This document shows, piece after piece, positions 125-60,249 of a stretch of 64,000 nucleotides of DNA. The position numbers were made by a program, and so were the translations under genes. This DNA is from a virus: positions 1-64,000 of IMG/VR virus record IMGVR_UViG_3300034105_004893; one strand, written 5' to 3'. Under the pieces are notes generated by a model, which saw nothing but the letters and a program-made list of their open reading frames with translations, did not search any database and had not been told where the DNA came from. Position 1 is the first letter of the stretch. Every line of letters begins with the position of its first letter.

Positions 125-2296
125 TTAGTCGAAGTCACTACTGAAGCGAATTCTTTTTCTTCTTTTTAGTTCTTGGTTTATCATATCTTGTACTTCTGGC
201 GATTTCTTATATCTAAAGGCATCCAAACTAGTGAGTGATTTCAAAAATGAATATGGCTTATCAATCAATTTTACCATTTCATTTATATCTTTTGCATTTC
301 TGATCAAAATAGAAGCTTCTTCAAGACTGAGTTGTTTTTTAATTTTAATCAAGGTCATTGCCATTTTTAATTTGTCTGTTGCGTATTGAACAAAATATTG
401 AAATGCCACTATAGAAATTTCTTGATTTTTTTCTTTTAGAATTTGGATAATATCATTTATAGTTTTATCTTTATCTTTTGATCTGTCGAAAATCCATCCT
501 ATGACTTTGTCATGAACTGGATATTTACTTTGTCTTAAATTATTTAAAATAAGTTCTAAAATTTCAGTATTATCTTTTAGATTAGAAGTCAAATAAGAAA
601 CATCATCACCAGAAAGATTTTCTTTATATTTTATAATTATTTTTGCCATTTGTTCTCTTCTATCAATTGCATTATCAAGCAAAGAAGAAATATTTTTATC
701 AGAAAGTTTGCTTATATTATCTGATCCTAACCGTTCTGCTATTTTGTCTTTATCTTTTGAATAAAAAAGCAAATGAAAAACATTACTATTAGAAAGATTT
801 GTTTTTTTGTATCTTATAATTAGATCTGACATTTTGTCTTTATCAGTTGCAGTACCAAGTAAACTATAAACATTGCTATTAGAAAGTTCTGGTTTTTTTC
901 TTATAATTAATTCTGCCATTTTTTCTTTGTCATTTGCCTTAAGAAGCAAATTTTCAACAGTATCATCAGAAAGTTTTGGATTTTTGTTTAGAATTATTTC
1001 TGCTATTTTTTCTTTATCATTTGCAAATTGAATCAAATTAAAAACATTATTATCAGAAAGTTCTGGTTTCTTTTCAATAATCAATTCTGCTATTTTTTCT
1101 TTGTTGATTGCAGCATAAATCAAATCACCAACATTTTTGTCAGAAAGGTTTGATTTCTTTTGGATAATTAGTTGTGCTATTTTGTCTCTGTCTTTTGTAT
1201 TTACAGCCAAACTATAAACATCACTATCAGAAATTTCTTGATGCTTTTCAATAATAAGTTGTGCTATTTTGTCTTTGTCAGTTGAATAAGAAATCAAATG
1301 ATAAACATTATTACGAGAAAATTTTGGGTTGTAGTTTATAATTAGTTCTGAAACTTTGTCTTTGTCTTTTGCATTTCTAAACAATGAAACAAGAATTTCG
1401 CCATAAAGTTCTGGTATGTATTTTATAATTACTTCTGCCATTTGGTCTTTGTCACTTGCTCTATCAAGTAAATCAGAAATATCTTTATCAGAAAGTTTTT
1501 TTAAATTTGATTCTAATTTTTTTGCTGTTCGTTCTAAGTTTTTAGAATTCAAAAAAATACTTTTGACATTTTCAATTTCAGTATTGCTGCCAAACGCAAG
1601 TTTTTCTTTCATTTTTTCTGGAGCCTTGTAGGTAGTTTTAAAAGCTGTGCCTAATGTTCCAACCGATTTTATCCAACCAATATTACTTTTTAGTTCTTCC
1701 ATCTTTTTCATATTATTAGGTTCTGCGACTGCATAACCCAACATAGTTATTGTTCCATCTTTAACTGTTGGATATTTCACTAAACAATAACCATCATTTG
1801 CCCCATAATAGATAATTCCTTTTACCGAATTTACTATCCAACCATTTTGTTCATAGAATTGTTTTGCTAAAGCTGATGAGTATTTTTCTTTTTCTTGTTG
1901 TTCATCGTAATATTTTAATTTAATTTCATTTACATTTGGTTTGTTTAGTAGTCCTAATTTCTTTAATTGATCGCTTATTTTATAATCCTTGCCATGTATT
2001 TGTTTTGCCACAGATAATTGAAATATGAGATATTTGTCTAGTTCTTCCACTTTAAATTTGACTACTGCTTGACCATATGTTTGCATATAATTGGTAAATT
2101 GGCTTTCTATTGCAAAAGTAGTATAAAGACCACAACCGTACATACAACCTGAGCCAACTTTGTAATCTTTTGTGAGTATACTTGATACGGCTTTGACGCT
2201 ATCATCTTTATTGCAATCTTGACATGTTCTATGATAGACAGTTGCGGTCTTATTGGGGAATATTTCTTCAGATAGTAGCCAATGTTTAAAGTTCAT
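125..2296 (-). CDS. Leader-bearing ADP-ribosyltransferase-like protein with about 14 helical repeats
   Basis: The start is placed at the ATG giving MNFKHWLLSEE, because this leader recurs in about twenty proteins here; an in-frame TTG/ATG region further upstream would add 16 hydrophobic residues. Residues 20-210 look like an ADP-ribosyltransferase fold: YHRT at 21-24, then GSGCMYGCGLYTT ending near 60 (compare the GxGxYx(T/S) strand of PARP-like enzymes), and a later GIIYYGANDGYCLVKYP. From about residue 270 there are roughly 14 repeats of about 34 residues built on LS-D-x-x-V-x-x-L-L-x-x-A-x-D-K-D-K-x-A-E-L-I-I, probably two-helix units. There is no Shine-Dalgarno; TAAATAA lies four bases before the ATG. 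T4 Alt is a known precedent for a head-packaged, injected ADP-ribosyltransferase. The ART call is inference; the repeats and leader are directly visible. Confidence 0.7.
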   Translation of the reverse strand: MNFKHWLLSEEIFPNKTATVYHRTCQDCNKDDSVKAVSSILTKDYKVGSGCMYGCGLYTTFAIESQFTNYMQTYGQAVVKFKVEELDKYLIFQLSVAKQIHGKDYKISDQLKKLGLLNKPNVNEIKLKYYDEQQEKEKYSSALAKQFYEQNGWIVNSVKGIIYYGANDGYCLVKYPTVKDGTITMLGYAVAEPNNMKKMEELKSNIGWIKSVGTLGTAFKTTYKAPEKMKEKLAFGSNTEIENVKSIFLNSKNLERTAKKLESNLKKLSDKDISDLLDRASDKDQMAEVIIKYIPELYGEILVSLFRNAKDKDKVSELIINYNPKFSRNNVYHLISYSTDKDKIAQLIIEKHQEISDSDVYSLAVNTKDRDKIAQLIIQKKSNLSDKNVGDLIYAAINKEKIAELIIEKKPELSDNNVFNLIQFANDKEKIAEIILNKNPKLSDDTVENLLLKANDKEKMAELIIRKKPELSNSNVYSLLGTATDKDKMSDLIIRYKKTNLSNSNVFHLLFYSKDKDKIAERLGSDNISKLSDKNISSLLDNAIDRREQMAKIIIKYKENLSGDDVSYLTSNLKDNTEILELILNNLRQSKYPVHDKVIGWIFDRSKDKDKTINDIIQILKEKNQEISIVAFQYFVQYATDKLKMAMTLIKIKKQLSLEEASILIRNAKDINEMVKLIDKPYSFLKSLTSLDAFRYKKSPEVQDMINQELKRRKRIRFSSDFD

Positions 2297-2300
2297 AGAT

Positions 2301-2307
2301 TTATTTA
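2301..2307 (-). promoter_or_regulatory. TAAATAA late-promoter-like element
   Basis: On the minus strand TAAATAA is followed by ATCT and then the ATG at 2296, with no Shine-Dalgarno sequence. It resembles the T4 late -10 box TATAAATA. At this distance the transcript would begin at or next to the start codon. Confidence 0.4.
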
Positions 2308-2368
2308 CACAACAAATAAGATAAAATCCACTAAATAATGTCATTACAAGTTAAGAGTGGGGATAATT

Positions 2369-3589
2369 ATGAAATTCAAAATTTGGTTAGAAAATGACGA
2401 AAATAATGATGCCATTAAGAAAATGGAAAAATATGCAATTGAAGGTAAATTTGAAAAGTTAAAGCAATTATATGAAGAAGCATTAAGTGCAAATCATCTT
2501 ACAAAAGATCAGTATAGAAAGTTGAAAGATACATTTGAAGATTCAACTAGTGATCCATATCTTGAAGAGTTTGCAAAATTTTCCAAAGAATATGATAAAA
2601 GAGAATATGAAAAAAATAAATTAGATCCCACTAATTATGCTCCACATTTCATATTAAAATCTAATCTGGAACATGTTTTTATAAGCGACTTAAGGTGGGC
2701 AAGCGGTTCTAAGAGATATAGTTTGCTAACTAAAAAATCAAATCAGAAATATATTGATTCATTCCCAGAAGAAGTGCAACAAGCCTGTAAGGGTATGTTG
2801 GCATATTCTATGGATTATATAGAAGCCAAGAAAAAGATAGATGATCTTAAAGAAAAAGTAAAGACTCCAGCAGATTTTAAAGCGATGAAAAAAAGTGAAG
2901 ATGAGGAACGCAAGAAAAAAGAATTGTTCATGAGACCTCTAGCATCAAAAATGGCAATGGGCAAATTATCGACTCAAGTCGAACAAGTGCTAGAAAGCAA
3001 ACAACAAGAATTTATCGAAAGTTATAAAAACGATCTATTAAATAAATTTCAAATTAATTCTGAAAAAGTAAAAAATTACAAAATTTCAAATAAAGATGAT
3101 ATGGTAAAGATAATGCGTCAATTTATGTATTTTAATATTTTAGAGCTTTTCAAATTTGACTATAAAAATTTGACTATAGAAAAAGTAGAAAATACAAATG
3201 AAATTGTAAATAAGCTATCAAAAAATAGATGGGATTCAATGTCGGGATTTTTCAAATCGAGAATGATCAATAAAATAGGCCCAATTGTTGATAAGAAGGC
3301 CAAAGACAATAGTGATTTTACAATGAAAACAATAGAAATTTCTATTGATGGTGGAAAACTTGTAGGTAGATTTAATTTCAATTTTACAGACCAGTCTTCA
3401 TTCAATGTAAAACATCAAGTTGTAGGTTATATTAACAAAAACAATTTAGGATTTTATAGATTCCCAACACACTTTCAAAATATAAAAACTGCTGATGGAA
3501 CTGCATATAACTTTTTGTCAGAAGAAGAAATGTACAAAAAGTTTGCAGACATTGAAAAACCAAAAGAAATGCCAGAGGAAAAAATCTAA
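2369..3589 (+). CDS. Leader-bearing protein of unknown function (406 aa)
   Basis: The ATG at 2369 gives MKFKIWLENDEN and is preceded by a GGGG run about seven bases upstream; a GTG four codons earlier is less likely. The first 10 residues match the shared leader seen across the window. Residues 15-200 are strongly charged and mostly helical (many K/E), while 300-390 are richer in beta-type residues. I recognise no domain or catalytic motif. It is divergent from the ADP-ribosyltransferase-like gene at 125-2296, the two starts lying about 70 bases apart. The leader suggests a virion-packaged protein. Confidence 0.75.
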   Translation: MKFKIWLENDENNDAIKKMEKYAIEGKFEKLKQLYEEALSANHLTKDQYRKLKDTFEDSTSDPYLEEFAKFSKEYDKREYEKNKLDPTNYAPHFILKSNLEHVFISDLRWASGSKRYSLLTKKSNQKYIDSFPEEVQQACKGMLAYSMDYIEAKKKIDDLKEKVKTPADFKAMKKSEDEERKKKELFMRPLASKMAMGKLSTQVEQVLESKQQEFIESYKNDLLNKFQINSEKVKNYKISNKDDMVKIMRQFMYFNILELFKFDYKNLTIEKVENTNEIVNKLSKNRWDSMSGFFKSRMINKIGPIVDKKAKDNSDFTMKTIEISIDGGKLVGRFNFNFTDQSSFNVKHQVVGYINKNNLGFYRFPTHFQNIKTADGTAYNFLSEEEMYKKFADIEKPKEMPEEKI

Positions 3590-3625
3590 CAAAAAATAGA
3601 TTCTACTTTAATATTTCCATTACAA

Positions 3626-3970
3626 TTACATGGAAAAAGAACTGCCACATCCACAAGTAGACTTAGCTTGTGGATTGTCTATTTTAAATCCACGAGAATT
3701 CATATCATCAATAAAATCTATAGTTGCATCTCCGATATACATAGCACTTCTTTTATCGACTATTACTGATATGCCTTTGATTTCATATAATTCGTCTAAT
3801 TTTTGATTTACCTCTTTTTCTATTGTTAGTTTCGATTGGAAGCCAGAGCATCCACCACCAACAACTTTTACTCTTACATGAAGCTTTTCTTCTGTAGCTC
3901 CTTGGTTTCTTTCTTCTTCAATTGCAAGATTTATTTCTTTTACTGCTTTTTCTGTTATTTTAATTGCCAT
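3626..3970 (-). CDS. iscA: A-type iron-sulfur carrier (IscA/ErpA/HesB family)
   Basis: At 114 residues it has the usual family length. The three conserved cysteines are all present: C41 in GGGCSGF and C106/C108 in STCGCGSSF. These proteins accept or hand over Fe-S clusters to apo-proteins. AAAGGA sits six bases before the ATG. No other isc, suf or nif gene lies nearby, so it probably feeds host or phage Fe-S proteins on its own; HesB-type proteins are known in some phages. The symbol is given at family level, because IscA, ErpA and SufA cannot be told apart from this sequence alone. Confidence 0.92.
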   Translation of the reverse strand: MAIKITEKAVKEINLAIEEERNQGATEEKLHVRVKVVGGGCSGFQSKLTIEKEVNQKLDELYEIKGISVIVDKRSAMYIGDATIDFIDDMNSRGFKIDNPQAKSTCGCGSSFSM

Positions 3971-4111
3971 TTTATTTCCTTTACAATAATTCTTTTAACT
4001 TTTGTCTATTATTCATTTCAATAACTTAATCAAAACCTTCTTCTGGTGCGATTTGTTAAAAATAACTCATCATCCTATCTAAGACTTATGATAGAATATT
4101 TTTTATCAATT

Positions 4112-4888: not shown

Positions 4889-4972
4889 AATCACCTAAAA
4901 ACATGAAATTAAGTTTTTGTAGATGTATTATAGTTAGGTATTTTTTATTGTACATGTTAATTTCCTTTTGTT

Positions 4973-7787: not shown

Positions 7788-8243
7788 TTAATTGGCTAAT
7801 TTATATACAAATTTATCTAATTCTTTTTTTGTTTCTGGGTTTTTTTGAACAAATTGATTTAACATGTTCTTGGCCTTTGGATCTTTTGATATTTCTTCTA
7901 ATTGTTTGATTCTTATTTCATCAAACTTAGACATAGTTTTTCCAATACCAGTTTTCAAACCAGAATAAAATGGTTCTACTATTTTTTTCAAAACATTCAT
8001 GGTTCTGTCGAAGCTTGTGTCTGTAGGTATTTCACGATTATAATTTCTTTCGAATTCATAACCAAAAGCATAATCAGCAGCTTTCAAAGAATTGGTTGAA
8101 AGTTTTTTAACGAAATCCCAAAGTCCAGAACCGACACCAGAAATTCCAGATTCTATTCCAGCAGTTGCTATATCCATAAGTGATTCGTCATAAAACTTAG
8201 GATCTCTTTGTTCTAAGAACTTTTTAAATGTATATTCTTTCAT
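7788..8243 (-). CDS. Leader-bearing 151-aa protein, paralogous to the middle of the 23446-25026 protein
   Basis: The ATG at 8243 gives MKEYTFKKFLEQRDPKFYDE; 13 extra upstream codons are possible but hydrophobic and unsupported. The leader F-K-K-F-L-E-Q-R-D-P-K-F-Y-D-E matches an internal segment (FEQYIMSRDPEMYME) of the protein encoded at 23446-25026. There is no Shine-Dalgarno; TATAAAT ends two bases before the ATG. The rest is helical with a short glycine-rich SGISGVGSG. It sits directly upstream of the 6928-7773 gene. Function unknown. Confidence 0.68.
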   Translation of the reverse strand: MKEYTFKKFLEQRDPKFYDESLMDIATAGIESGISGVGSGLWDFVKKLSTNSLKAADYAFGYEFERNYNREIPTDTSFDRTMNVLKKIVEPFYSGLKTGIGKTMSKFDEIRIKQLEEISKDPKAKNMLNQFVQKNPETKKELDKFVYKLAN

Positions 8244-9672: not shown

Positions 9673-10467
9673 TTAATTACTTTTAAAATTTAAAATATTT
9701 GGATCTAATTTTTTTTTGTCTGAGCCAAAAGTATCTTTTAATCCATCCCAGTCTATTGGTTTTGGGCTTTCTTTTGGTGTTAAAACAGTACGCTGATTGC
9801 CTTGCCAATCTTTTTCTTGTGGGTTTTCCCAAGGATTACCACCATCGGGATTCCCAAATGTTCCACCAGTTTTCTTAAATAAATCCTTCATATATTGACC
9901 TACTTTTTCCATTTGATCTTCCGCAAGCTCTCCAGTTTTTGAAACAATAGCACCAATATAATCACCAATAGCACCAGCAAAATCTTTTATTGCATTCCAA
10001 GCTTCCATTAATATTTTCCAAATGGTGTTTCCTCCAAGACCCAAAATATACATCAATGCTTTGTAAGCCATTTGCCCCGTCCAACTGAGTAAATCTGTGA
10101 TAACTCCATGTTGCAATCCAAGATATAACAATGCTCCAACAACTACAACTATACCTAATTTTTTTACTGCACTTTTCAAAAATTCTTTGATAACAATTTT
10201 TTTATCTTTGTCTTTAATTTCTTCTTCTATTTTTTGGGGTTTTATTCCAATTATTTTTTTTAAAACTGACATTCCGAATTTCGTTACATTATATGCTGCT
10301 GACAAACCAGCCTTTGCCGTTTTGTACGCACCAATTGCAGCTAACGATAGAATTTCATTTACTTGATCTGATTCATTCAAACAATAGATATCTTTCATTT
10401 TTAAAGAGTTTAATTTAACGAATTGTTTCTCAACCAAGTACAAATTAAAACTTTTCATATTAATCAT
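9673..10467 (-). CDS. Leader-bearing membrane-associated protein
   Basis: It starts MINMKSFNLYLVEKQ, with GAGGCAAT directly before the ATG, the same leader layout as the next gene downstream. A strong hydrophobic segment lies near residues 94-115 (LGIVVVVGALLYLGLQHGVI), with further apolar helices to about 175 (ALMYILGLGGNTIWKILM, FAGAIGDYIGAIVS). The C-terminal 70 residues are polar and proline-rich. The arrangement of leader, charged linker and hydrophobic helices resembles the 6928-7773 protein in general plan, but I see no clear sequence match. A role in membrane interaction after injection is only a guess. Confidence 0.68.
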   Translation of the reverse strand: MINMKSFNLYLVEKQFVKLNSLKMKDIYCLNESDQVNEILSLAAIGAYKTAKAGLSAAYNVTKFGMSVLKKIIGIKPQKIEEEIKDKDKKIVIKEFLKSAVKKLGIVVVVGALLYLGLQHGVITDLLSWTGQMAYKALMYILGLGGNTIWKILMEAWNAIKDFAGAIGDYIGAIVSKTGELAEDQMEKVGQYMKDLFKKTGGTFGNPDGGNPWENPQEKDWQGNQRTVLTPKESPKPIDWDGLKDTFGSDKKKLDPNILNFKSN

Positions 10468-10535: not shown

Positions 10536-10970
10536 TTAAAAATCTTCCATGTAAGTATCAAATGATTCTGGATCACTATCTATTCTGCTAACAACAATGT
10601 CATCATTGTCGAATTTAACATTAGGTATTTTTTTCCAAGTATAAGCTGCACCAGTCTCATATGTGCTTGGATAAATATCAATTTCATAAACACCCTCTTG
10701 AAATTTTCCAATTGTGTAAACATGTTGTGTTCCAACTGTAGCAGAAACTGTAGCTGCATCAATTCCATTATCATTTAAAACACTTGCGATTTCATCTGCG
10801 ATATTATGACAAATGCCACCACCACCATATTCTTCATCATGTCCTTGATCATCTTGTTTCCAATTATCATAAATATGTTGAGCTTTTGATATTATCATTG
10901 GCTTTAAAGATTCTATTTCTTTTATAGATTTTAAAGGTTGTTCGCTTTCAATCCAATTTTTAAAATTCAT
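10536..10970 (-). CDS. Leader-bearing papain/transglutaminase-like cysteine peptidase fold
   Basis: Residues 1-12 (MNFKNWIESEQP) are the shared leader, and GAGGA precedes the ATG. A possible Cys-His-Asp triad is present in the order expected for papain-like or transglutaminase-like folds: Cys in GGGGICHNIADEI, His in GTQHVYTIGKF, Asp in YEIDIYPS. I recall phage proteins with the same GxCH...QHVY...YEIDIPP pattern, though without a named activity. The ATG overlaps the stop of the 2H-like gene upstream (ATGA), so the two are translated together. Activity (protease, amidase or inactive) is inference. Confidence 0.7.
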   Translation of the reverse strand: MNFKNWIESEQPLKSIKEIESLKPMIISKAQHIYDNWKQDDQGHDEEYGGGGICHNIADEIASVLNDNGIDAATVSATVGTQHVYTIGKFQEGVYEIDIYPSTYETGAAYTWKKIPNVKFDNDDIVVSRIDSDPESFDTYMEDF

Positions 10971-11523: not shown

Positions 11524-12696
11524 ATGAATTTTAAACAATGGTTTTTTAACGAAATGGAGATAGCCACATTAGATAAAGAGAAAATTTATCCTTATGGGTC
11601 TTCCGATGAAATAAAATTGGGTCAGCCAAAAAGCAGTAAAGTAAGTGGTTTTTGTCTACACAATCCAGAAATAAATGCATTTGCTCAAAAAAATTCAACA
11701 AATATGTTTATAGTTTTTGCATTTGTTTTTTACACAATTCAAAAAGAGTGGCAGATAGTTCATCAAACATTTCCAGATTTTTTAAAATGGGTTTTTGAAG
11801 ATGCGATACATAAAACAAAAAAAAATAAGATAAATGCTTGGGATTATGCTGGCCAATCGTTTGCAAAACAGGCAAATCTACTTGGTTCCAAAAAAGGAGA
11901 AAGTAAGGCGAGATATCTCGAAGAATTATGGGAAAAAAAAGATACTATTTATAATGGTATAACATCGCTCATGAATAAAGGTGAATCTACTTCCTTATCA
12001 GATTCTTCTGATTTTAAAATTTTCGAGTATATTGTAGACAACATAAAAGGACTTGCTGCTGTAAAAGCTGCTTTTGCAACTCAATTAATCATAGGAAAAT
12101 ATGGATGTGTAGATTCTGTTAATATGAGAGCGTATGACAAAATGATTCGTGCCGATATAGAAAAAGACCCAAAAAAATCTGGCTTTAGTTTAACCACTAA
12201 AAAAAGTAAGACCAAAAAAGACGCTCTTGGTAATTTTGTAAATATAACCGACAAAAAAGGTAATACCGTCACTGATACAAATGTAAAAACAAGTGGTATT
12301 GGTTTGAAAGGATATGTTAGTTTTCTTGATGCCTTGCAAGACTTATATGGCGATAGCATTTCTAAAATCATGTGGGATGATTGGTGCAAAATAGTAAATG
12401 ACAAAATTATAAAATCTAATGACATTGGCGATTCAAATAAAATAAAATTAAATGTTAATGATCAAGAATTTAAAATAAACCCATACAAAGTAAAAAGCAA
12501 TACAAGAGACATGATTGACAAAGAAAAGGGATTTTTGCAAAAAGTAGATCCAGAAGGTACAGGTTCTGGAATTAGTTTGGCCCATTTGCAATCAATCAAA
12601 GCTGGAGAAAAGTATGGAGAAAAATTCGATATTGCAAAAGTATTGGAAAAAATTAAGATTTTAAAAGAATATATATTATCACAAAACATTCTATAA
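11524..12696 (+). CDS. Leader-bearing protein with HhH-like 'VKAAFATQLI...GCVDSVN' motif
   Basis: AAGAAGGG precedes the ATG; residues 1-12 are MNFKQWFFNEME (shared leader). Near residues 175-203 it has GLAAVKAAFATQLIIGKYGC and VDSVNMRAYD. This matches a motif I recall from phage proteins (PGLGxVKAxFxxQLxxGxxGCIDxHNxR) resembling the helix-hairpin-helix of DNA glycosylases. A lysine-rich insert (KKSKTKKDALGN) follows. It is divergent from the 2H-like gene over a 56-bp spacer. Function not known; nucleic-acid binding is plausible. Confidence 0.68.
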   Translation: MNFKQWFFNEMEIATLDKEKIYPYGSSDEIKLGQPKSSKVSGFCLHNPEINAFAQKNSTNMFIVFAFVFYTIQKEWQIVHQTFPDFLKWVFEDAIHKTKKNKINAWDYAGQSFAKQANLLGSKKGESKARYLEELWEKKDTIYNGITSLMNKGESTSLSDSSDFKIFEYIVDNIKGLAAVKAAFATQLIIGKYGCVDSVNMRAYDKMIRADIEKDPKKSGFSLTTKKSKTKKDALGNFVNITDKKGNTVTDTNVKTSGIGLKGYVSFLDALQDLYGDSISKIMWDDWCKIVNDKIIKSNDIGDSNKIKLNVNDQEFKINPYKVKSNTRDMIDKEKGFLQKVDPEGTGSGISLAHLQSIKAGEKYGEKFDIAKVLEKIKILKEYILSQNIL

Positions 12697-22455: not shown

Positions 22456-23379
22456 TTAAGACAATTCTTTTATTACATTTGTAAAATCGGCCAAAGGTAT
22501 TTGATCTGGTGTTGTTACTGTTGATGAAATCCTATGTTTGTCCAACAGTGACAATTTTAAAAATGAAGACTTCCTTTTTTCTATAGTATTCTTAAATGCA
22601 GAAAAGAAATTAGGCACAACAAAATAAGCCTTTGCAAAATCTAATCTTTTATTTTTTGAGATGAAATAAAACTTGACGACCACAAATTCATCTTCCATTT
22701 TTACACCAGTTGGAACTATAACAAATGGTTTTTTGGGAAAATCTTTGTCTATCATTCCAGTATGTGCAATTTTAGATGGATCTAAAGTTATGTATTTTTT
22801 TACAAAATTGTTTTGTAACAAAGGTAGACTTTTCAAAAATCTTTGAATAACCCTTTTGGTTTCCTTTGCTTCTCCAGCTATTGTATCCCAATCTTTTAAA
22901 GCTTTTTCTGATTTTTCTTTATTTTTCATTCTGTCAAAAAGATCTTTTCTAAGAAATAAGCCATATTGAACTATCGGATACATGTCTTTCATATATCTAT
23001 CGTAAAATCTTTTATACATAACTTCCATATTTGGATCAGAAGACAAGAAAGAAATAAGTTCTGGTTTAAATTGATTTACAAAAGCCAATACTATCTTAAC
23101 CAAGCTTGAATAAACGGCAGATGGGTTTCTACTTTTATTAGTAAGATTATAACCGCCATAAGGATCTGTAAGATTGACATCATAACACTTCATATTTGGA
23201 AAGCCAGTTCTACTCTTTTCAGTAAAAAAGATAGTATGTTTGCCATCATCAGAAACAAAATCTGATTTATAGCCACTTTCTCCACTTCTAGACATATAAG
23301 TATCAAATTTAACGGAAGATGTATCAGCTTTAAATGGGTCTTCTAATTCATTTATAATTATCCAATTTTTAAATCTCAT
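22456..23379 (-). CDS. Leader-bearing protein, 'MYxRFYxRY' family
   Basis: The leader reads MRFKNWIIINELEDPF. Residues about 85-150 contain NPSAVYSSLVKIVLAFVNQF, then FLSSDPNMEVMYKRFYDRYM and YGLFLRK. The same order of motifs appears in the proteins at 32402-33019 and 33453-34211, so this is a paralogous family. I recall phage proteins with a similar FSxxx(D/S)R(x)nLY-R motif but no known activity. No clear ribosome binding site is seen. Confidence 0.72.
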   Translation of the reverse strand: MRFKNWIIINELEDPFKADTSSVKFDTYMSRSGESGYKSDFVSDDGKHTIFFTEKSRTGFPNMKCYDVNLTDPYGGYNLTNKSRNPSAVYSSLVKIVLAFVNQFKPELISFLSSDPNMEVMYKRFYDRYMKDMYPIVQYGLFLRKDLFDRMKNKEKSEKALKDWDTIAGEAKETKRVIQRFLKSLPLLQNNFVKKYITLDPSKIAHTGMIDKDFPKKPFVIVPTGVKMEDEFVVVKFYFISKNKRLDFAKAYFVVPNFFSAFKNTIEKRKSSFLKLSLLDKHRISSTVTTPDQIPLADFTNVIKELS

Positions 23380-31369: not shown

Positions 31370-32407
31370 ATGAAATACATAACACACATAGGTCGCAAAT
31401 TTTTAAGGAATGGTGGTGCTGAAATCCTTTTAAGAAGCATTTCATCACATGAGATGTTTCAAGGCGATTTGCAATTCAGACAAAGTTTATGCATCGATAG
31501 AAATTTTTATGATAAAGAATTTTGCGAAACATTTCCTCATCCTGTATATCTTGGTGGAAAAAACGAAATAACTAAAGCAATTGAAAATGAAGATATAATT
31601 TTATTTTGGGGAGACATCCAATTAAATAATCTAGATATTCCAAAACCAAAAGTTTGCATATTGTTCGTGTGCAGCGAAGAGCCTAATATAGTTTCCAATA
31701 ATTCAAGCTATATTACACATTGCATTGCGACATCAAAGAGAACGGCACTTAATTCGTGTGGCAATATACCATATACAGTAATTTACCCTGGATTTGATGA
31801 AATAAGACTAACGCCAACAGAAACTAGAGATTCGCAAAGAAAAAAAATGGGTCTTGGCGATGATGATTTTTTAGTTGGTATGATTTCAAGAATTGGAGAA
31901 AACAAAAGACAATTTTGGCTTATGGAGGCAATTCAAAAAATAAATTCAGAAAAAATAAAAGCAGTTTTTGTTGGTGGAGGAAAAGATTTAAAAAAACTTA
32001 AAAATATGAATGTAAGAAATTGTTTGTTTGTCGGTCATCAAGATGATGTTGCAAATTGGTATCTGGCCATGGATGCTTTTTGTATATTGTCAAGAAGTGA
32101 AGGAGGGCCAACAACCTTATTCGAATCATCTTATATGAAAGTTCCGTTGATATATACAGATTGCGGATTTACAAAAGAATTGTGCAATAGTTACAATTCT
32201 TTCTTTGTAAGAGATGTTAAAGATTTAATAGAAGTTATAAAAATCATGCATTCATTAGGAAAAGAAAATTTAAAAAGATATACAAATAATAATTATAGCA
32301 TATATGAAGAGTTTGGATCTATAGAAAAATCGGCCAAAAATTGGTACAAAACAATTAAAGATGTAGTGGCAAAAAAAGAAAGGGAAAATTGCAGATTACT
32401 TTCATAA
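31370..32407 (+). CDS. Glycosyltransferase family 4/1 (GT-B)
   Basis: An N-terminal HIGRKFLRNGGAEILLRSIS donor/acceptor loop leads to VIYPGFDE, VGMISRIGENKRQFWLMEAI, a repeat of VFVGGGKDL, and the nucleotide-sugar site SRSEGGPTTLFESSYMKVP, the E-x-x-x-x-x-x-x-E-like motif of GT4 enzymes. Length of 345 is normal. It is a soluble enzyme that should transfer a sugar from a nucleotide donor. The stop overlaps the convergent 32402 gene by six bases. Confidence 0.88.
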   Translation: MKYITHIGRKFLRNGGAEILLRSISSHEMFQGDLQFRQSLCIDRNFYDKEFCETFPHPVYLGGKNEITKAIENEDIILFWGDIQLNNLDIPKPKVCILFVCSEEPNIVSNNSSYITHCIATSKRTALNSCGNIPYTVIYPGFDEIRLTPTETRDSQRKKMGLGDDDFLVGMISRIGENKRQFWLMEAIQKINSEKIKAVFVGGGKDLKKLKNMNVRNCLFVGHQDDVANWYLAMDAFCILSRSEGGPTTLFESSYMKVPLIYTDCGFTKELCNSYNSFFVRDVKDLIEVIKIMHSLGKENLKRYTNNNYSIYEEFGSIEKSAKNWYKTIKDVVAKKERENCRLLS

Positions 32408-33019
32408 TCCAATTCTTTTTATTCTTTTTAAATTTTTAATGTTAGAAGAACTTTTTTCATAATCTTGTTTGATCAGATCCATAAATTTTTCTTTTAAATT
32501 TTCTGGTATAGACATTAAAATCTTATCAATTAATTTATAATCGATGTAAAAAGTTCCTAACTTTACAAGTCCAAACTCACTAGAAAACCTTTTGTAAAAA
32601 TCATGATACATAATTTTCAAAGATGCAAATTCAGTGCTAAATTCTAAAGCAACAGGATTTTCCTTGTCTATTACAGTCTTTATTGACTTCAAGGCTTCTG
32701 AATATACTTTATATGGATTCATGCTTTTTCCACTAGGAGAAAGTTCATCTTTAGCACCTTCTAATGTCATAAAAACAACATAGGTTGGTCTTGTTAATTC
32801 GTCTTTAAATTTGTTTTCATATTTGAATAAGTCTGGCATTTTTTGGAATAGAAAGTCTTTGACTCCTCTTGGATGCCTTATAAAATTCATTTTATATTTT
32901 TCATTTTCAGAAGCATAGAAATGGTAGTCGTATTGCCATTTACTTCCTTGCAATGCCACTGGCTTGAAATCTGATAAAACAGACCGCAATTCATTTATAT
33001 ATTGATAAAACGATTTCAT
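32402..33019 (-). CDS. Leader-bearing protein, 'MYxRFYxRY' family, member 2
   Basis: The ATG at 33019 gives MKSFYQYINELRSVL. It carries PYKVYSEALKSIKTVIDKEN then EFSTEFASLKIMYHDFYKRF and FYIDYK, the same order as in the proteins at 22456 and 33453. TATATATA lies upstream with no Shine-Dalgarno. Length 205 aa. Function unknown. Confidence 0.7.
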   Translation of the reverse strand: MKSFYQYINELRSVLSDFKPVALQGSKWQYDYHFYASENEKYKMNFIRHPRGVKDFLFQKMPDLFKYENKFKDELTRPTYVVFMTLEGAKDELSPSGKSMNPYKVYSEALKSIKTVIDKENPVALEFSTEFASLKIMYHDFYKRFSSEFGLVKLGTFYIDYKLIDKILMSIPENLKEKFMDLIKQDYEKSSSNIKNLKRIKRIGL

Positions 33020-39636: not shown

Positions 39637-39645
39637 TATAAATAA
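39637..39645 (+). promoter_or_regulatory. TATAAATAA late-promoter-like element
   Basis: TATAAATAA, which contains the exact T4 late box TATAAATA, stands four bases before the ATG at 39650 with no Shine-Dalgarno. This is the best match in the window. Confidence 0.5.
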
Positions 39646-39649: not shown

Positions 39650-40054
39650 ATGAACATTATTCATTTTTTTGAGTGGGAACAGCCAGATATAATAAGCTTT
39701 GACTTTGACGATACTTTATGCTTAAAATATGGCGTTCCAAATGAAGAAATTGTTAAAATTCTCAAAAATTACCATCGTGAAGGCTGTACATGCATAATAG
39801 TAACCGCAAGGAATCATGAGCATGAATCAGAGGAATGGTGGCAAGAAAATCAACCAAATCGTACTACTATAATTAAATTCTTAAAAAAACATCAAATACC
39901 AATTGAGAAAATATTTTTCACCAACCATGAGCCAAAAGGCCCAATTTTAAAAAAATTAAATGTAAAATTGCATTATGACGATAAAGATGAAGAATTAGAA
40001 AGTGCCAAAGATCACGGCATAAAAACTATAAAAGTGGAATATAAGGAAGTTTAA
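39650..40054 (+). CDS. Leader-bearing HAD-family phosphatase
   Basis: The first 12 residues (MNIIHFFEWEQP) fit the shared leader, and the HAD nucleophile motif DFDDTL follows at 18-23. IIVTARN supplies motif II, and LHYDDKDEELE matches the acidic motif III-IV. At 134 residues it is a minimal, cap-less HAD of the kind seen in phage T4-like 5'-3' deoxyribonucleotidase or polynucleotide phosphatase domains. Downstream the next gene overlaps by one base. Confidence 0.82.
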   Translation: MNIIHFFEWEQPDIISFDFDDTLCLKYGVPNEEIVKILKNYHREGCTCIIVTARNHEHESEEWWQENQPNRTTIIKFLKKHQIPIEKIFFTNHEPKGPILKKLNVKLHYDDKDEELESAKDHGIKTIKVEYKEV

Positions 40055-46649: not shown

Positions 46650-47510
46650 TCAAAAATTATTCGCAGAAATAAGAAGTGTTTGGTCTGCCATTAATATCCA
46701 AGACTGCAAAAAATAAGCATTTGGCAAACTTTTTTGTTCCATTTCTCGGAGTAAAACTTTTGCATCCTCGTTTATTTTATTTAACTTTTCATGATTGTTA
46801 TTCAATTGAACAAGGATTTTAATGTTATCTACCAAATCATAATATTGAAGAATTAAAGATTCGTACATTTTTTTAGGTTCTAAGTAGAAATATTTCAAAA
46901 TATTTTCGACACAATCATTTGAATGTAGCTGTCCATTTGAATGGTGTAACCATCCAGCGCACATTAAATCTACTTTTTCATTTGGTTTTAAATTTATATC
47001 ATATGCAGCCTCCTGTGTCATGGAGTACAAATGATTTTTTAATGGGATGTTTCCAAAAAACACATCATCTTTATGTAATTCTAAAGACTCATACTTTGAT
47101 TTTCTAATATCTTGATTTATAAAATATTCCTGAACAAAAACCTTACATTTTCTACAAATGCCATCGCCAACCAAATCATTTTGACTTTCATTGTAAAAAT
47201 CATGATTACAAGATTTTATTTTTTGAAAATTATCATATGCATCATCCTCAGCAATTTCAATTTTCTTACCTCTTCCTGTAATCCATATTCTTGGCCTTTG
47301 CCATTTTTCAAGTATAAATATGTTTGGTAAATTTATACTTTCTGGGATTTGTATATTGGCAGCAAATAAATACTTGTCTTTTTTATCTTTTTTTGAATAA
47401 AGATTTTTATACTTCAAATAATTTATTTCAGATTCTTTTATCTTAACAATCGCATCTTCGCCCCAATCTTTGGAGCTTGAATATTCAATTTCTGTTTTAT
47501 TAGAGTACAT
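46650..47510 (-). CDS. Unknown protein with zinc-finger-like cysteines
   Basis: It overlaps the sigma-factor gene by 11 bases. One zinc site is plausible: C-N-H near residue 96, then DGICRKCKVF near residue 116. The rest is helical. The position directly after the sigma gene suggests co-expression. Function unknown. Confidence 0.6.
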   Translation of the reverse strand: MYSNKTEIEYSSSKDWGEDAIVKIKESEINYLKYKNLYSKKDKKDKYLFAANIQIPESINLPNIFILEKWQRPRIWITGRGKKIEIAEDDAYDNFQKIKSCNHDFYNESQNDLVGDGICRKCKVFVQEYFINQDIRKSKYESLELHKDDVFFGNIPLKNHLYSMTQEAAYDINLKPNEKVDLMCAGWLHHSNGQLHSNDCVENILKYFYLEPKKMYESLILQYYDLVDNIKILVQLNNNHEKLNKINEDAKVLLREMEQKSLPNAYFLQSWILMADQTLLISANNF

Positions 47511-48423
47511 TTTTACAATCCGTGTTCCTTACAGTTTCACGCATAGAAATCAAAAATTTCTCTTTTAACTGCCTTACTCTTTCCTTCGTTATTTCCAATA
47601 AACCGCTTATTTCTTCAAGATTTTTTCTTTCTTTTCCATTAATTCCAAAATAATGCTCAATGATTAAAATCTGCCTATTGATATCTCTTGTATTAAGTCT
47701 TTTTTTTGCAGTTTCAATAACACGATTGATAAATATTGCATTTTCTTTTTGATGCACTTCTGATGTAAGGAATATTTCTGCCGAATTTTGAATTTCTGTT
47801 TGATTATCGTCAATACTATAAAATTCATTTTTTTTATTTTTTTTAAGATTAATCATTCTGAAGAAGTTTTTACGGAGAACCCAAACACAATATGTACTAA
47901 ACTTATTTCCAAGAGTGTAATTGAAATAATCAACAGATTTTATCACATCCATATAAGCATCTGACAAATAGTTATCCAGATTGCGTTTTTCTCTATAACT
48001 TTTAAAATCGTTTTTCAAAATGTGTGTTGCCAAACGAAAATTAGAACTTGCTATCTTGTTACGCAAATCATATATTTTAATTTGGAGATTTTCTATTTTT
48101 TCTATTTTTGTTTTGATTGATTTTTTGCAATTCAATTTTTCAATTAAATTTTTAGCTTTGAATTTGAGAAAATTAAGTTGTTTAAAAAGATGATATTCTT
48201 GTTCCCTCGTTAGAAGAGGCTCTTCGTAACAAGGTCTCATTTCTGGTTGTTTGTTTGTATTTCTAAGATTTAAAACTTTCTTTGATTCCAAATCGAATTT
48301 ATGTTTGTCTGGTATATCGCCTAATATTTTTTTACTTGTAATCTTTTTATCAAAATCAACATGATGAAAATACTTTAAGTTTGTCTTTAATATAGATTCT
48401 TTCCTTTCTTCAATCGCTTGCAT
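47500..48423 (-). CDS. Sigma-70 family RNA polymerase sigma factor
   Basis: GAGGTC lies seven bases before the ATG. Region 1.2 is PLLTREQEYHLFKQLNFLKF near residue 89, region 2 spans RNKIASSNFRLATHILKNDF to KFSTYCVWVLRKNFFRMI, and region 4 ends with LEEISGLLEITKERVRQLKE, including the helix-turn-helix that binds the -35. The L-L-T-R-E-Q-E-x-x-L-F-x-x-x-N-[FY]-L-K form of region 1.2 is one I associate with planctomycetes. It is likely the regulator of part of the phage genome. Confidence 0.88.
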   Translation of the reverse strand: MQAIEERKESILKTNLKYFHHVDFDKKITSKKILGDIPDKHKFDLESKKVLNLRNTNKQPEMRPCYEEPLLTREQEYHLFKQLNFLKFKAKNLIEKLNCKKSIKTKIEKIENLQIKIYDLRNKIASSNFRLATHILKNDFKSYREKRNLDNYLSDAYMDVIKSVDYFNYTLGNKFSTYCVWVLRKNFFRMINLKKNKKNEFYSIDDNQTEIQNSAEIFLTSEVHQKENAIFINRVIETAKKRLNTRDINRQILIIEHYFGINGKERKNLEEISGLLEITKERVRQLKEKFLISMRETVRNTDCKNVL

Positions 48424-54959: not shown

Positions 54960-54969
54960 ATGATTAAAT

Positions 54970-55330: not shown

Positions 55331-55411
55331 TTCATATCTTCCTTGAAAAAATAAATTGATCTTTAATTACTATAATTTAAATTTTAAATAAAAACAAGTC
55401 TTAATCAAAAC

Positions 55412-55440: not shown

Positions 55441-55461
55441 TTATCAAAATATATATTTTGA

Positions 55462-55623: not shown

Positions 55624-55656
55624 GATTCCTCCATTTTATAAAATGAGAAGCGAAAT

Positions 55657-56484: not shown

Positions 56485-57007
56485 TTTTAATTTCCTTTGT
56501 AATATCTTTCAAAATAGAATTAAAATAATTCATTTCTAAAATGCAATAATAATTTGATTTTTTATCTTCTACAGCTTCTTGAAGTTCTTTCGAGTTTTTG
56601 GAAAATTCAAGGACATGAACGGAACAATTAAAATTTTTATCTTCATTCATTCTTAAAATGTTTTTGTACGCATAGGTGTTATTAGGTTTGAATTTATTGG
56701 TACAAACAAAAATAATTTTTTTGCAACCCTCTTGAGATCCAACACCAAATAAAGTATCTCTAAATGATTTTTCAAACAAATCATTGTCCTTTATCTGATA
56801 AGAATTTAATTGAGCTACACTTTCTCCATGAGTAGTCGGTAATTTGGAATTCCCAGAAACATAAAGCTTTGAACTGCTTCCAATATTTGAAAAAAAATCC
56901 ATAAATGTTTTTTTTATGAATTTAAGACCAGAATCTTTATTATATGTGAAATCATGTATATCAAAAACAATCCCAATGTATATCTGTTTTTCAAATCCAT
57001 CAATCAT
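56477..57007 (-). CDS. Unknown protein, possibly vWA-like fold
   Basis: GGAGAACAAAA precedes the ATG. Alternating strands and helices (QIYIGIVFDIHDF, CKKIIFVCTNKFKPN) suggest a vWA-like alpha/beta fold, but the MIDAS D-x-S-x-S is absent. Overlaps the GT2 gene by eight bases, so the two are co-translated. Function unknown. Confidence 0.58.
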   Translation of the reverse strand: MIDGFEKQIYIGIVFDIHDFTYNKDSGLKFIKKTFMDFFSNIGSSSKLYVSGNSKLPTTHGESVAQLNSYQIKDNDLFEKSFRDTLFGVGSQEGCKKIIFVCTNKFKPNNTYAYKNILRMNEDKNFNCSVHVLEFSKNSKELQEAVEDKKSNYYCILEMNYFNSILKDITKEIKNG

Positions 57008-57057
57008 TTTTGTTCTCCATTATACTATTTAATAGTAGAGAAACAAAGGAACAAAAA

Positions 57058-57933
57058 ATGGAAAATAGAGAACAAATAAAGCAATATATTAAAGCTTGTG
57101 AACATATGATTAAGTTTTTCACCAAGTTTCTTGATACTGATACGCTTGGTATTAGATCTTTATCAAAAGAAGATAAGCTGAAAGAATTGACTGATTTAAG
57201 GTACGAAATCAAAAAAGATACTTGGCCAGAAGCCGAAAGTCCAAAACTTACACAATCTCAAAAAAGTATGAAATTATTTGGAGAATTAATTTCTACACCA
57301 GTTAAAAATAAAAATATATTAGAATTTGGATGTTGTGATTGTGATTTATCATCATTGTTAAAAAGTAAATTTGGAGCCAAAACTGTTGTTGCTTTCAAAT
57401 TAGATGATTGTCAGTCTACAGACACCAATCTTTTAGACCCAAATGTAATTTTCACAGACAATTTCCGTGTCGCCCAACAGATAGCTCCATTTGATATTAT
57501 CATTCTAAATGATGTTATTGATCATTTAGAAAAGCCAGTTTTCTGGATTAAACAATTAGCAAAAATGCTTTCTAAAGAAACAGGAAGAATGTTTGTTCGT
57601 TGTCATCCATGGCTATCAAGAAATGGAACACACCTATCACAACAAATGAACAAAGCTTTCTTGCATCTCATATTTTCAGATGATGAATTGGGAACTCTAG
57701 GTGTATCCAATAAATTCACAAGAAAAATAACCGATGATATGGATTCATATAAAAGATTTTTTGAAGAATCAAATTTAAAAGTTTTAAACCATAAGATTTA
57801 CACCAAATCAATAGAAGTGTCATTTCTTAAAAACCAAGTTGTTTTAGAAAGAATTAAAAAGTTCACCAAAATAGATAAAAACTTATTAGAAAAATTAGAA
57901 GTAGAGTTTATTGACTTTGAATTAAAGGCGTGA
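57058..57933 (+). CDS. Class I SAM methyltransferase, paralog of the 42403 gene
   Basis: The ATG at 57058 follows AAAGGAACAAAAA. ILEFGCCDCDLSSLLKSKFG is a degenerate motif I (the glycines are replaced by cysteine and aspartate), then FDIIILNDVIDHLEKPVFWI. RMFVRCHPWLSRNGTHLSQQ is the family insert shared with the 42403 protein. The altered motif I may weaken SAM binding. Length 291. Confidence 0.8.
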   Translation: MENREQIKQYIKACEHMIKFFTKFLDTDTLGIRSLSKEDKLKELTDLRYEIKKDTWPEAESPKLTQSQKSMKLFGELISTPVKNKNILEFGCCDCDLSSLLKSKFGAKTVVAFKLDDCQSTDTNLLDPNVIFTDNFRVAQQIAPFDIIILNDVIDHLEKPVFWIKQLAKMLSKETGRMFVRCHPWLSRNGTHLSQQMNKAFLHLIFSDDELGTLGVSNKFTRKITDDMDSYKRFFEESNLKVLNHKIYTKSIEVSFLKNQVVLERIKKFTKIDKNLLEKLEVEFIDFELKA

Positions 57934-57935
57934 AT

Positions 57936-58553
57936 CTATTTTTCATCGTTATCATTATCTAATTCGATCATCCAATAAGCCACACCTAAAAAACTTTCCC
58001 AATCTTTTATTTTATAATCACATCTCAAAGCATTCATTTTAGGCTTCTTAGGTACTTTTAAAAGTTTCATATTGGCTTGTAACGGATTTCTATTCGCTTT
58101 TTTGGTGTTACACTTTACACAAGCTAAAACGCAATTTTCCCAAGTGGTCAAACCGCCATGACTTCTAGGAATAACATGATCTATAGATAATTCTTCTGTG
58201 CTAGGCTTCTGACCACAATATTGGCACTTGTATTCGTCTCTTTTGTAAATTGTCTTTCTACAATAATGAACTTTTTTTGCTGGAACTTTATCGTATCTTG
58301 TAAGCTGAATAACTGATGGTATTCTGAATGATGCATTTACACTTCTAAGCTTTTCTTCATCGTCTTGTGGTCTTACTTTAGACCAATCTTCCCAAGTAAG
58401 AGTTTGAAATCCGTTGGCACAATCTACAATTATAGCTTTTGGCTCACCATCTTTATGTTCACTGAATAATTTTATTAGAGCTTTTTCAAGCGTTAGAATA
58501 GTAATTGGTCGCCACGACTTGTTTAAAACTAAAACTTTTCTATTTTGTATCAT
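57936..58553 (-). CDS. HNH endonuclease
   Basis: A widespread bacterial HNH protein: VLVLNKSWRPITILTLEKAL, then CRKTIYKRDEYKCQYCGQKP, LSIDHVIPRSHGGLTTWENC, VLACVKCNTKKANRNP. Zinc C-x-x-C pairs and the H-N-H core are complete. Length 205. No clear Shine-Dalgarno; the start lies seven bases after the upstream stop. Function may be DNA processing; not clear. Confidence 0.88.
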   Translation of the reverse strand: MIQNRKVLVLNKSWRPITILTLEKALIKLFSEHKDGEPKAIIVDCANGFQTLTWEDWSKVRPQDDEEKLRSVNASFRIPSVIQLTRYDKVPAKKVHYCRKTIYKRDEYKCQYCGQKPSTEELSIDHVIPRSHGGLTTWENCVLACVKCNTKKANRNPLQANMKLLKVPKKPKMNALRCDYKIKDWESFLGVAYWMIELDNDNDEK

Positions 58554-58560
58554 ATTGTAT

Positions 58561-59538
58561 CTATAATTTTAAATCACAATTAGACCATTCTTTAATTCTA
58601 ATTCTTGCCAATTTCATGGCATCTTCAAACCATTCTTTAGTTTTCTTAAAATGAGGAGGACTATACATTTTTCCAGATGTGTAACTTCTAAAGTGATCTA
58701 TATTGGAATCATTGGTTCTTTTTTCATTTTCTTCATGTCCAATTATAATTGTTTCAATATTATTTTTTCTTAATATGTAATTACCAAGTATTTCTGTATC
58801 TGGCCAGTTTGGTCTCATTGGATCTGGCTTGTAATCAACAATATTATATTCATTACAAAGTCTACGCAAACTCCACGCAAAACCAATTTTATCCATGGTT
58901 TTCATGTGATACATGCTTGCAGTGTGTGAAATCATACCTCTCCAATCATCATGCTTTCTTGGAGTTATTTCATAGCCTACGACTGGAGTTTTCTCATTAC
59001 ATATATTCAATAAATAATCTATAAAATCATTACGCTTTAAAAATACATCGGCATGTGTGGCAAACAAATATGGAGTTCTACATAATGTCATAGCCAAATC
59101 CATAGCCATGGCTGGGTAATCACTTGGATGCATAACTCCGTTCAAAGCAATTGTATGAACCTCTACATCCTCATCTCGAAGATCCAATACACTATCCAAA
59201 TGATCGCTTCTACTTCCAGTATCAATGATCATGATGTATGGTCTTTCTGTTTGCAATCGCAACAACTCAATGCAAGTCCTCAATGTTTCTGATGTATTCA
59301 AGCAAGGTATGACCGCTGTTGCTTTATATTCCCAAGGCTTTTTATCACATGATCCTTCCCATGGAGATTTTATGGTTAATTCGCCATAAGATGGAGATGT
59401 TTCAAATTTGCGAATCTCTACTTCTTCCCAATTATTTTCAGTATCTAGCCAAATATACTTTCTATCTTGGCTAATTTTCTTCTTCTTTTCTGGTGTTTTT
59501 GCCCATCTAGAATCGGAAATTTTCATAATTTTATTCAT
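58561..59538 (-). CDS. GT2-like glycosyltransferase
   Basis: KATAVIPCLNTSETLRTCIE, IMIIDTGSRSDHLD and YLFATHADVFLKRNDFI give the GT-A fold with an H-x-D variant of the DxD site. It has an N-terminal 80-residue extension and C-terminal 100 residues outside the fold. GAGGAATATA precedes the ATG by about 11 bases. Length 325. Confidence 0.78.
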   Translation of the reverse strand: MNKIMKISDSRWAKTPEKKKKISQDRKYIWLDTENNWEEVEIRKFETSPSYGELTIKSPWEGSCDKKPWEYKATAVIPCLNTSETLRTCIELLRLQTERPYIMIIDTGSRSDHLDSVLDLRDEDVEVHTIALNGVMHPSDYPAMAMDLAMTLCRTPYLFATHADVFLKRNDFIDYLLNICNEKTPVVGYEITPRKHDDWRGMISHTASMYHMKTMDKIGFAWSLRRLCNEYNIVDYKPDPMRPNWPDTEILGNYILRKNNIETIIIGHEENEKRTNDSNIDHFRSYTSGKMYSPPHFKKTKEWFEDAMKLARIRIKEWSNCDLKL

Positions 59539-59601
59539 TTAAATATATTCCTCGCAATAACTAAGTAAGCAATTGTTTTTTATTATAAGAGAAGGCACAT
59601 T

Positions 59602-59892
59602 ATGTTGACAAATTTTTATGAATGGATGAGCTTTAGACAAGCTGTAGAAGCACCAGAAGGCGATTATGCCTTTATAGGAACATACAACAATGATCAATTC
59701 CCAAACTTGAAAGAAACAAGCCAAAGAATTGAATTGGATGCCGCATTATCCTTAATTCCAAAATCTTATCAAAATCAATTTTCTAACATGGAAACCATTC
59801 ATGCTGGGAAGTCGCAAAATGAGAGCAATAAAGATGTTATTTGGATTTCTAATCAAGATCAAAATATTACTTTTTTGTTCGAAAAAAGATAA
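59602..59892 (+). CDS. Leader-bearing 96-aa protein
   Basis: AGAAGG precedes the ATG; it begins MLTNFYEWMSFRQAVEAPE (divergent leader: F-x-x-W-[ML]). The rest is polar with GDYAFIGTYNNDQFP. The family is not recognised. It is convergent with the 59893 leader gene. Confidence 0.62.
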   Translation: MLTNFYEWMSFRQAVEAPEGDYAFIGTYNNDQFPNLKETSQRIELDAALSLIPKSYQNQFSNMETIHAGKSQNESNKDVIWISNQDQNITFLFEKR

Positions 59893-60249
59893 TTATTTTT
59901 TAATATGAGTTATTGAAAAAGGATAGTTATCCTTTGCTGTATAAAACTTCTTAATTGGCTCTGGTCCTGATATATGTCTTATATCAAATGGGGCTTTAGT
60001 GCCATTATTGCCATCGCCATAATTCTTTGGCTCTCCTGGTATGTGCTTAATACTAAATGGAGGGCCATCACCGTTATCGTAAAGCCTATTGTCCAAACTA
60101 ATATACAAAAGAGCATCAGCAGAACTAGGCAAATATGTTTGCAATGGGTAAAGTCCAATGCCTCCATACCCTAGAGGGTACAAACCAGTTTTTCCAGATG
60201 TTTTACCTTCATTGATTTTAAACCAGTTTTTAAACGAAAAATCTTTCAT
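59893..60249 (-). CDS. Leader-bearing protein with three 'PFxIxHI' repeats
   Basis: It begins MKDFSFKNWFKINEGKTSG. Three short repeats follow: PPFSIKHIPGEP, APFDIRHISGPEP and YPFSITHIKK, in a Gly/Pro/Tyr-rich, probably extended chain. No Shine-Dalgarno; ATAAATAA lies three bases before the ATG. Function unknown; a packed structural or decoy protein is possible. Confidence 0.68.
   Translation of the reverse strand: MKDFSFKNWFKINEGKTSGKTGLYPLGYGGIGLYPLQTYLPSSADALLYISLDNRLYDNGDGPPFSIKHIPGEPKNYGDGNNGTKAPFDIRHISGPEPIKKFYTAKDNYPFSITHIKK

Follow-up and report, generated by a model that had tools for sequence, protein, structure and literature searches.

A leader resembling the T4 capsid-targeting sequence on many unrelated proteins of a clade of uncultured megaphages

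Introduction

The internal proteins (IPs) of phage T4 are injected and inhibit restriction enzymes; their leader is all that they have in common (PMC12373910; PMC3012670). Mutagenesis of the T4 leader MKTYQEFIAE assigned targeting mainly to residues 4 and 7 and processing to residues 8 and 10 (PMC9026906), and at least ten IPs are reported across T4 relatives (PMC12373910). A leader of similar build is described here on many proteins encoded by a 64,000-nucleotide stretch of viral DNA, hereafter the window, which comprises bases 1-64000 of IMG/VR record IMGVR_UViG_3300034105_004893. We read this leader, or tag, as a T4-type capsid-targeting sequence carrying a large cargo that is mostly of undefined function, and give this reading a probability of roughly 0.82.

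The record is linear, incomplete and 165,207 bases long (the 165-kb record below), with 30% GC; no tRNA genes were found in the window. Among its named relatives LR756511.1 is the closest, an uncultured phage of 595 kb with a PrkA-like kinase that is 67% identical. LR756511 has homologues of 69 of the 234 genes of the 165-kb record, largely collinear at ~64-115 kb, and IMG/VR holds many further contigs of the same clade. The clade is thus one of megaphages and the 165-kb record is a fragment. Sister megaphages can differ widely in base composition: two PrkA-like kinases (L003:10374-12443 and L031:10001-12070) have 87% protein identity but 68% DNA identity, with GC content at third codon positions (GC3) of 0.27 and 0.82.

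A common leader in front of unrelated bodies

The leader was modelled by a nine-column matrix trained on LR756511 only (47 genes) to avoid circularity. Its consensus is approximately M-K-[TNS]-F-[KR]-[EQ]-[WFY]-[LFI]-[E/x]-x-[KRE]-E, about 11-12 residues long. In the 165-kb record 24 of the 234 genes score at least 9 bits, whereas shuffling residues 2-25 of every gene gives an expectation of 0.48, a value made conservative by the real leaders kept among the shuffled sequences. None of 383 spurious overlapping open reading frames (ORFs) and none of 776 internal ATGs of the record reach 9 bits. Matches of at least 8 bits are found in G001 (33, with 1.3 expected), G017 (11 and 0.27), G005 (13 and 0.7) and G028 (18 and 1.4), while they are few in G006 (2 and 0.33) and G038 (3 and 0.27). 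LR745206, LR756502 and LR756504 have at most a slight, non-significant excess of a MIKK[WF]xx[FY] variant.

The leader had been noticed on 20 proteins of the window in a preliminary description based on the DNA letters. All 20 ORFs exist and 18 score at least 7 bits; those starting at 23379 (3.5 bits) and 39650 (-0.8 bits) are weak. The N-terminal profile that was proposed as a check holds over the whole record, where the part beyond the window adds at least six clear leader genes (64779, 72666, 95777, 115297, 128426 and 129416), and in the independent genomes G001, G017, G005 and G028. The shared N-terminal leader is therefore confirmed, and so is the claim that the bodies behind it are unrelated: the 27 leader genes of the 165-kb record fall in 26 body families, and the 155 leader proteins of eight records in 126 (single linkage), 107 of which are singletons.

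Two columns of the leader are nearly invariant, one with F in 97% and the other with W, F or Y in 97%. They coincide with the T4 targeting residues 4 and 7 (MKTF form; PMC9026906). Beyond +8 from the anchor Phe, ~12 residues into the protein, no further conservation is seen. In a blind test on the 290 ORFs of T4, the five highest scores of the LR756511 matrix went to gp61.1, IPI, ORF 69264, IPII and IPIII, in this order; the chance of finding IPI, IPII and IPIII all within these five is 2.5e-6.

Within each genome the leader GC3, which ranges from 0.155 (G001) to 0.61 (G017), nearly equals that of the codons behind it; the peptide rather than the DNA is therefore under selection. The tag is kept in both relatives whose PrkA proteins are compared above. 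In orthologous cargo the linker varies but the tag stays, as seen for the CCA-adding/poly(A) polymerase, the C39 peptidase and two further families. The polymerase leader is preserved in the divergent homologues LR_580680, L278 and L293, being present in this phage, in LR756511 and in a third phage whose protein is 39% identical to that of LR756511; the C39 orthologue LR_429897 retains its leader as well. Recognizable domains begin right behind the tag, at residue 19 for NADAR and at residue 15 for C39.

Two proteins of cultured phages have a similar start. The best T4 match, gp61.1 (AF158101 18966-19130, L270; MKTFKEFIKEDMVAG..., 54 amino acids, 12.4 bits), is possibly an unrecognised internal head protein of T4, to which the leader rule points. 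In the T4-like cyanophage P-SSM2, the nucleotidyltransferase PSSM2_194 (158143-159417, L301) starts with MKSFSQFLTET (11.6 bits), an example of an enzyme with a comparable tag.

Predicted cleavage site and head module

Counted from the anchor Phe, positions +5, +7 and +8 are enriched in Glu. At +8, a column outside the matrix, it is present in 32% of leaders against a background of 7% (p about 1e-20). The motif [LIVFM]-x-E is found within residues 5-16 of 59% of leaders and 19% of other genes, and the broader [LIVFMWY]-x-E in 82% and 21%, percentages that are partly inflated by matrix selection. [AS]-x-E is not a feature of the leaders. The N-terminal arm of the capsid protein has conserved FLNE and LLE sites. 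Cleavage of the leader after Glu is likely, at a position that may vary with the Glu register.

LR756511 has a T4-like order of head genes, which code for the portal (with an intein), a 616-amino-acid protein, a gp21-type protease (PF03420, 6.7e-28), a scaffold-like protein and a gp23-type capsid protein (PF07068, 5e-87). Searches by phmmer with T4 queries detected gp20, gp21 and gp23 in LR756511, G001, G017, G038 and G028 (gp23 of G028 being fragmented by ORF calling), gp17 in LR756511, G001, G038 and G028 but not G017, and the contractile sheath protein gp18 in G001, G017 and G028. The alignment of the gp21-type proteases retains GELxHP and SSRGxG, the conserved His and Ser motifs. PF03420 is found in 13 of 13 relative contigs that were picked for their capsid gene; G001 and G017 each have the tagged genes on the same contig as the protease and the PrkA marker. 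Sample co-occurrence was used to look for a capsid contig belonging to the phage studied here: identical capsid genes occur in six samples, with a 99% copy in a seventh, and only sample 3300042449 also holds this phage. A second, diverged Peptidase_S77 homologue (3.5e-9) is coded by LR756511 242240-243133, away from the head module.

Late-type promoters

YAWAWA is found within 18 nucleotides of the ATG in 31 of 48 leader genes of LR756511, compared to 80 of 906 others. In the pooled records a match to TATAAATA (at least 7 of 8 positions) ends 4-5 nucleotides before the ATG of 28/155 leader genes and 19/2597 others; elements with this spacing come mainly from LR756511 and G001. The T4 late-promoter geometry would place the transcript start at or beside such an ATG. 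As one would expect for late genes, the same arrangement also precedes the genes of large tail-like LR756511 proteins, assigned by eye, and a gene in the G017 head region.

To judge by eye, the product of window positions 47500-48423 may be a homologue of a sigma-70-like protein of G005 (L214:18793-19707), and it is a candidate phage sigma factor for late promoters.

Leader genes and cargo of the window

Genes are designated by their start position, and upstream promoter-like elements are listed with the gene they precede.

125-2296, minus strand: MNFKHWLLSEE and a 723-amino-acid body with weak DUF2336 repeats (Pfam, below cut-off); 12.1 bits
2309-2302, minus strand: TGTAAATA, upstream of the 2296 gene
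2369-3589, plus strand: MKFKIWLENDE and a 406-amino-acid body with no Pfam match; 11.2 bits
5679-6926, minus strand: MKFKQWLFSEE and a class II CCA-adding/poly(A) polymerase nucleotidyltransferase (PF01743, 1.9e-24, residues 39-182); 12.1 bits
6928-7773, minus strand: MKTFSQYIEHR and a hydrophobic, Gly/Ala-rich body of 281 amino acids, paralogous to the 23446 body; 13.5 bits
7788-8243, minus strand: leader MKEYTFKKFLEQRDP (RDP type) and 151 amino acids; 14.4 bits
9121-9663, minus strand: MITFQSFLKK and 180 amino acids; 9.0 bits
9673-10458, minus strand: MKSFNLYLVEK and a hydrophobic body of 261 amino acids; 10.1 bits (the inner ATG at 10458 replaces 10467)
10536-10970, minus strand: MNFKNWIESEQ and an alpha/beta body of 144 amino acids; 13.4 bits
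10967-11467, minus strand: MKSFKNWFNEN and 166 amino acids, 2H-like by eye only; 13.0 bits; TATATA shortly 5' of the ATG
11524-12696, plus strand: MNFKQWFFNEM and 390 amino acids, with a leader-bearing body homologue in G028_157336; 15.0 bits
17435-17740, minus strand: MKTFYQYLEG and 101 amino acids; 12.2 bits
21116-21730, plus strand: M(RM)KSFHEYVEMRDD leader and a Gly/Ala-rich body; 12.4 bits
21882-22394, minus strand: MQFKNWLLQEE and a C39 papain-like peptidase (PF03412, 2.3e-18, residues 15-153); 7.8 bits
22406-22399, minus strand: TCTAAATA, upstream of the 22394 gene
22456-23379, minus strand: weak leader MRFKNWIIINE; the body may be related to those of 33019 and 34211 (alignment); 3.5 bits
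23446-25026, plus strand: MNTFSEFFIAQ and a hydrophobic body of 526 amino acids; 14.8 bits
24157-24201, plus strand: second, internal leader LTFEQYIMSRDPEMY at residue 238 of the 23446 ORF
32402-33019, minus strand: MKSFYQYINEL and 205 amino acids, with a homologue, G005_140904, that also bears a leader; 8.6 bits
33453-34211, minus strand: leader MFKLNFKNYLIED and 252 amino acids; 7.1 bits; GATAAATA at 34223-34216
39637-39644, plus strand: exact TATAAATA, late-promoter-like, ending 5 nucleotides before the 39650 ATG
39650-40054, plus strand: doubtful leader MNIIHFFEWEQ and a HAD-type phosphatase (PF06189 and PF08282 over cut-off); -0.8 bits
59602-59892, plus strand: leader MLTNFYEWMSFR and 96 amino acids; 9.4 bits
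59893-60249, minus strand: leader MKDFSFKNWFKINE and a YGGxGxYP-type body of 118 amino acids; 8.7 bits
60261-60254, minus strand: CATAAATA, upstream of the 60249 gene

The cargo of the window thus comprises the CCA-adding/poly(A) polymerase (6926), the C39 peptidase (22394), the HAD phosphatase (39650, whose tag is doubtful) and bodies without an assigned function. These results revise parts of the preliminary description: its RNA polymerase-like 6926 protein is the nucleotidyltransferase, an ADP-ribosyltransferase-like 2296 body finds no support in Pfam, PHROG or PDB, and Pfam and PDB gave none for a 2H-like 11467 body (PHROGs were not run). It had also proposed a subclass of RDP leaders. Position 7788 turned out to be the 3' end of the 8243 gene and not a start of its own, and RDP is present in the 23446 protein, not at the N-terminus but in the second, internal copy, an arrangement resembling a fusion of two tagged genes. 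RDP or RDD endings recur (8243 and 21116 in the window, 129416 in the record, 141835 and 158563 in G005) and hint at a subclass, the cases being too few for proof; 129416 and G005_158563 are an orthologue pair.

In the AlphaFold2 model of the 10970 protein the predicted local distance difference test score is below 50 at residues 1-8 and above 80 in most of the body. The leader is thus predicted to lie outside the fold, and the body to fold without its first eight residues. A fold search with this body gave nothing below E 0.001, the best being weak matches of thiol-protease/transglutaminase-like type. Its homologue L284 has the leader and L286 lacks it. The family of the 60249 body has seven leader-bearing members in five records.

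Outside the window, the 165-kb record codes for tagged basic proteins resembling DUF5872 and DUF6321, just under cut-off. Cargo in the relatives includes a 2H phosphoesterase matching both 2_5_RNA_ligase2 and Acb1, NADAR, the RNA-repair phosphatase HAD_SAK_1, a tRNA-ligase phosphodiesterase, DnaJ, GNAT and an SNF2-type helicase, as well as a NUDIX domain that was not traced to a single protein. Going by domain names, these cargo roles would fit that of the T4 internal proteins. One leader family (72666 of the record, L001:9666; G001_1480; LR_303354) is probably metallopeptidase cargo: an LHE[IV][GA]H-type motif was seen in the two relatives, and G001_1480 also matches a metallopeptidase-type Pfam family below threshold.

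Two further loci are probably interrupted by inteins or mobile elements. The middle part of a 1369-amino-acid ORF (L003:5018-9124; record 106015-110124) aligns with intein-bearing proteins, and the DNA polymerase gene lies in two distant parts of the record (91871-94612 and 103923-105137). The 1369-amino-acid ORF was considered as a terminase and rejected, T4 gp17 matching LR_535401 instead.

Probable capsid targeting and the alternatives

By its sequence, its position, its target residues and the genome context in relatives, the leader is of the T4 capsid-targeting kind, a reading well ahead of all alternatives. This assignment is supported by the match to the T4 IPs, the invariance of residues 4 and 7, the head module of the relatives and the late promoters. 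Each tagged protein would be expressed in the late phase from a late-type promoter, and the two aromatic residues at positions 4 and 7 would bind the scaffold core, so that the protein becomes enclosed in the prohead. There the gp21-type prohead protease would remove the tag, probably after the Glu at the leader end. The mature cargo would then be packed with the DNA, enter the next host with it and act before expression of any phage gene. One tag would thereby serve a large and fast-changing cargo of RNA-repair enzymes, 2H/Acb1-like phosphoesterases, NADAR, C39-type enzymes, helicases, small basic proteins, Gly/Ala-rich membrane-like proteins and many proteins with no known function. The interpretation as injected effectors put forward in the preliminary description is supported in this form, with core binding, cleavage after Glu, presence in the virion, injection and the roles of the cargo being what we infer.

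Several observations weigh against this reading. The T4 Alt protein (MELITELFDE) is also capsid-targeted and fails the matrix (-2.8 bits). The promoter link is weaker in the 165-kb record (6/27 versus 10/170, p=0.01) and does not reach significance in G005, G006 or G038. Four matches (69455, 16449, 52747 and 118691) are probably false, 69455 because its amidoligase domain starts at residue 11. The gp21-like protease that the preliminary description proposed to look for accompanies a gp23-type capsid gene in the 595-kb relative, but PF03420 is absent from the 165-kb fragment, an incomplete record. Finally, the Glu register ranges from +5 to +8, so that no single cleavage position is defined, and a hydrophobic-x-E site is missing from residues 5-16 in 18% of leaders. 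The variable register and the missing sites would suit a capsid-targeting tag with no scissile Glu that stays on the protein, all the more since targeting and processing are separable in T4 (PMC9026906). We consider an uncleaved tag unlikely, though worth keeping in mind, given the frequency of [LIVFMWY]-x-E in leaders, the independent enrichment of Glu at +8, and the relatives' gp21-type protease with catalytic-type motifs and capsid-protein FLNE/LLE sites.

Other functions of a short aromatic N-terminal tag are conceivable, since it would also suit sorting to, or docking at, a phage nucleus, a membrane or a replication centre. This is improbable: T4 bears the same tag on known head proteins, no tag was found in the first 50 kb of phiKZ, and late-type promoters are common to leader genes. 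Import into a phage nucleus in particular was rejected, no homologue of the phiKZ nuclear shell or of PhuZ being detected by sequence in the eight records. The conserved promoter-like element directly 5' of many leader genes might alternatively mean that the likeness lies in the DNA, as a promoter, a downstream box or a recently copied 5' segment, and that the peptide has no function. The GC3 values speak strongly against it, the leader following each genome at free synonymous sites while its residues are kept, also in the relatives with 87% identical PrkA; this explanation was rejected as very improbable. Chance has hardly any weight left. F, K, N and I are indeed frequent in AT-rich genomes and could yield MKxFxxW starts, but the matrix finds 0 to 1 matches among shuffles, spurious ORFs or internal ATGs and the same tag occurs in genomes of 41-53% GC, which refutes it.

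The capsid-targeting reading can be extended, at slightly better than even odds, to a widespread environmental clade of megaphages that would have turned the T4 IP device into general cargo loading, with 20-50 tagged proteins per genome (tRNA/RNA-repair, 2H/Acb1-like and NADAR proteins among them), a counter-defence kit available at time zero and apparently leaderless late transcripts from a promoter abutting the tag. The new aspects of the tag system are its scale, its cargo of enzymes and its pairing with a late-type promoter right next to the tag; such tagging in megaphages is not described in the open-access literature searched. A sequence rule would thereby predict likely head cargo among hundreds of uncharacterised genes of uncultured megaphages, which otherwise requires virion proteomics of phages never grown. 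RNA-repair and nucleotide-signal enzymes in the predicted cargo suggest that some phages may defuse nuclease or cyclic-nucleotide defences before gene expression. Like that of T4, the tag could also be used to load proteins for delivery.

Comparison with known systems

The Dar proteins of phage P1 are similar in that an N-terminal signal sends an anti-restriction protein (DarB) to the capsid (PMC9024508); this signal is 10-30 residues long and has no consensus among Dar proteins. The ejection proteins of SPN3US and phiKZ are likewise numerous proteins packaged in the heads of giant phages, several of them cleaved after Glu, and gp53 and gp54 have a common N-terminus (PMC5694885). Their propeptides are mostly longer than 100 residues, with an A/S-x-E cleavage motif and no single short shared tag, while conservation of the megaphage leaders ends ~12 residues in.

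The T4 ADP-ribosyltransferase Alt resembles the proposed cargo in being an injected enzyme whose packaged form bears a short propeptide that is cleaved, but differs in its off-matrix leader; phmmer with T4 proteins found no Alt homologue in the megaphage records searched. The closest system is that of T4 IPI-III (Mullaney and Black). Both have an N-terminal leader of ~10 residues with aromatic residues at positions 4 and 7 and a hydrophobic-x-Glu end, the one leader is common to unrelated bodies, IPI-III are recognized by the megaphage matrix, and the megaphage relatives have a T4-type head module of gp20, gp21, gp22-like and gp23 proteins. The megaphage leader favours F and W over Y and F, its Glu register varies, and in many of its genes a late-type promoter directly adjoins the ATG. 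Against the three IPs and Alt of T4, each larger megaphage record has 11-48 tagged genes, many of which code for enzymes.

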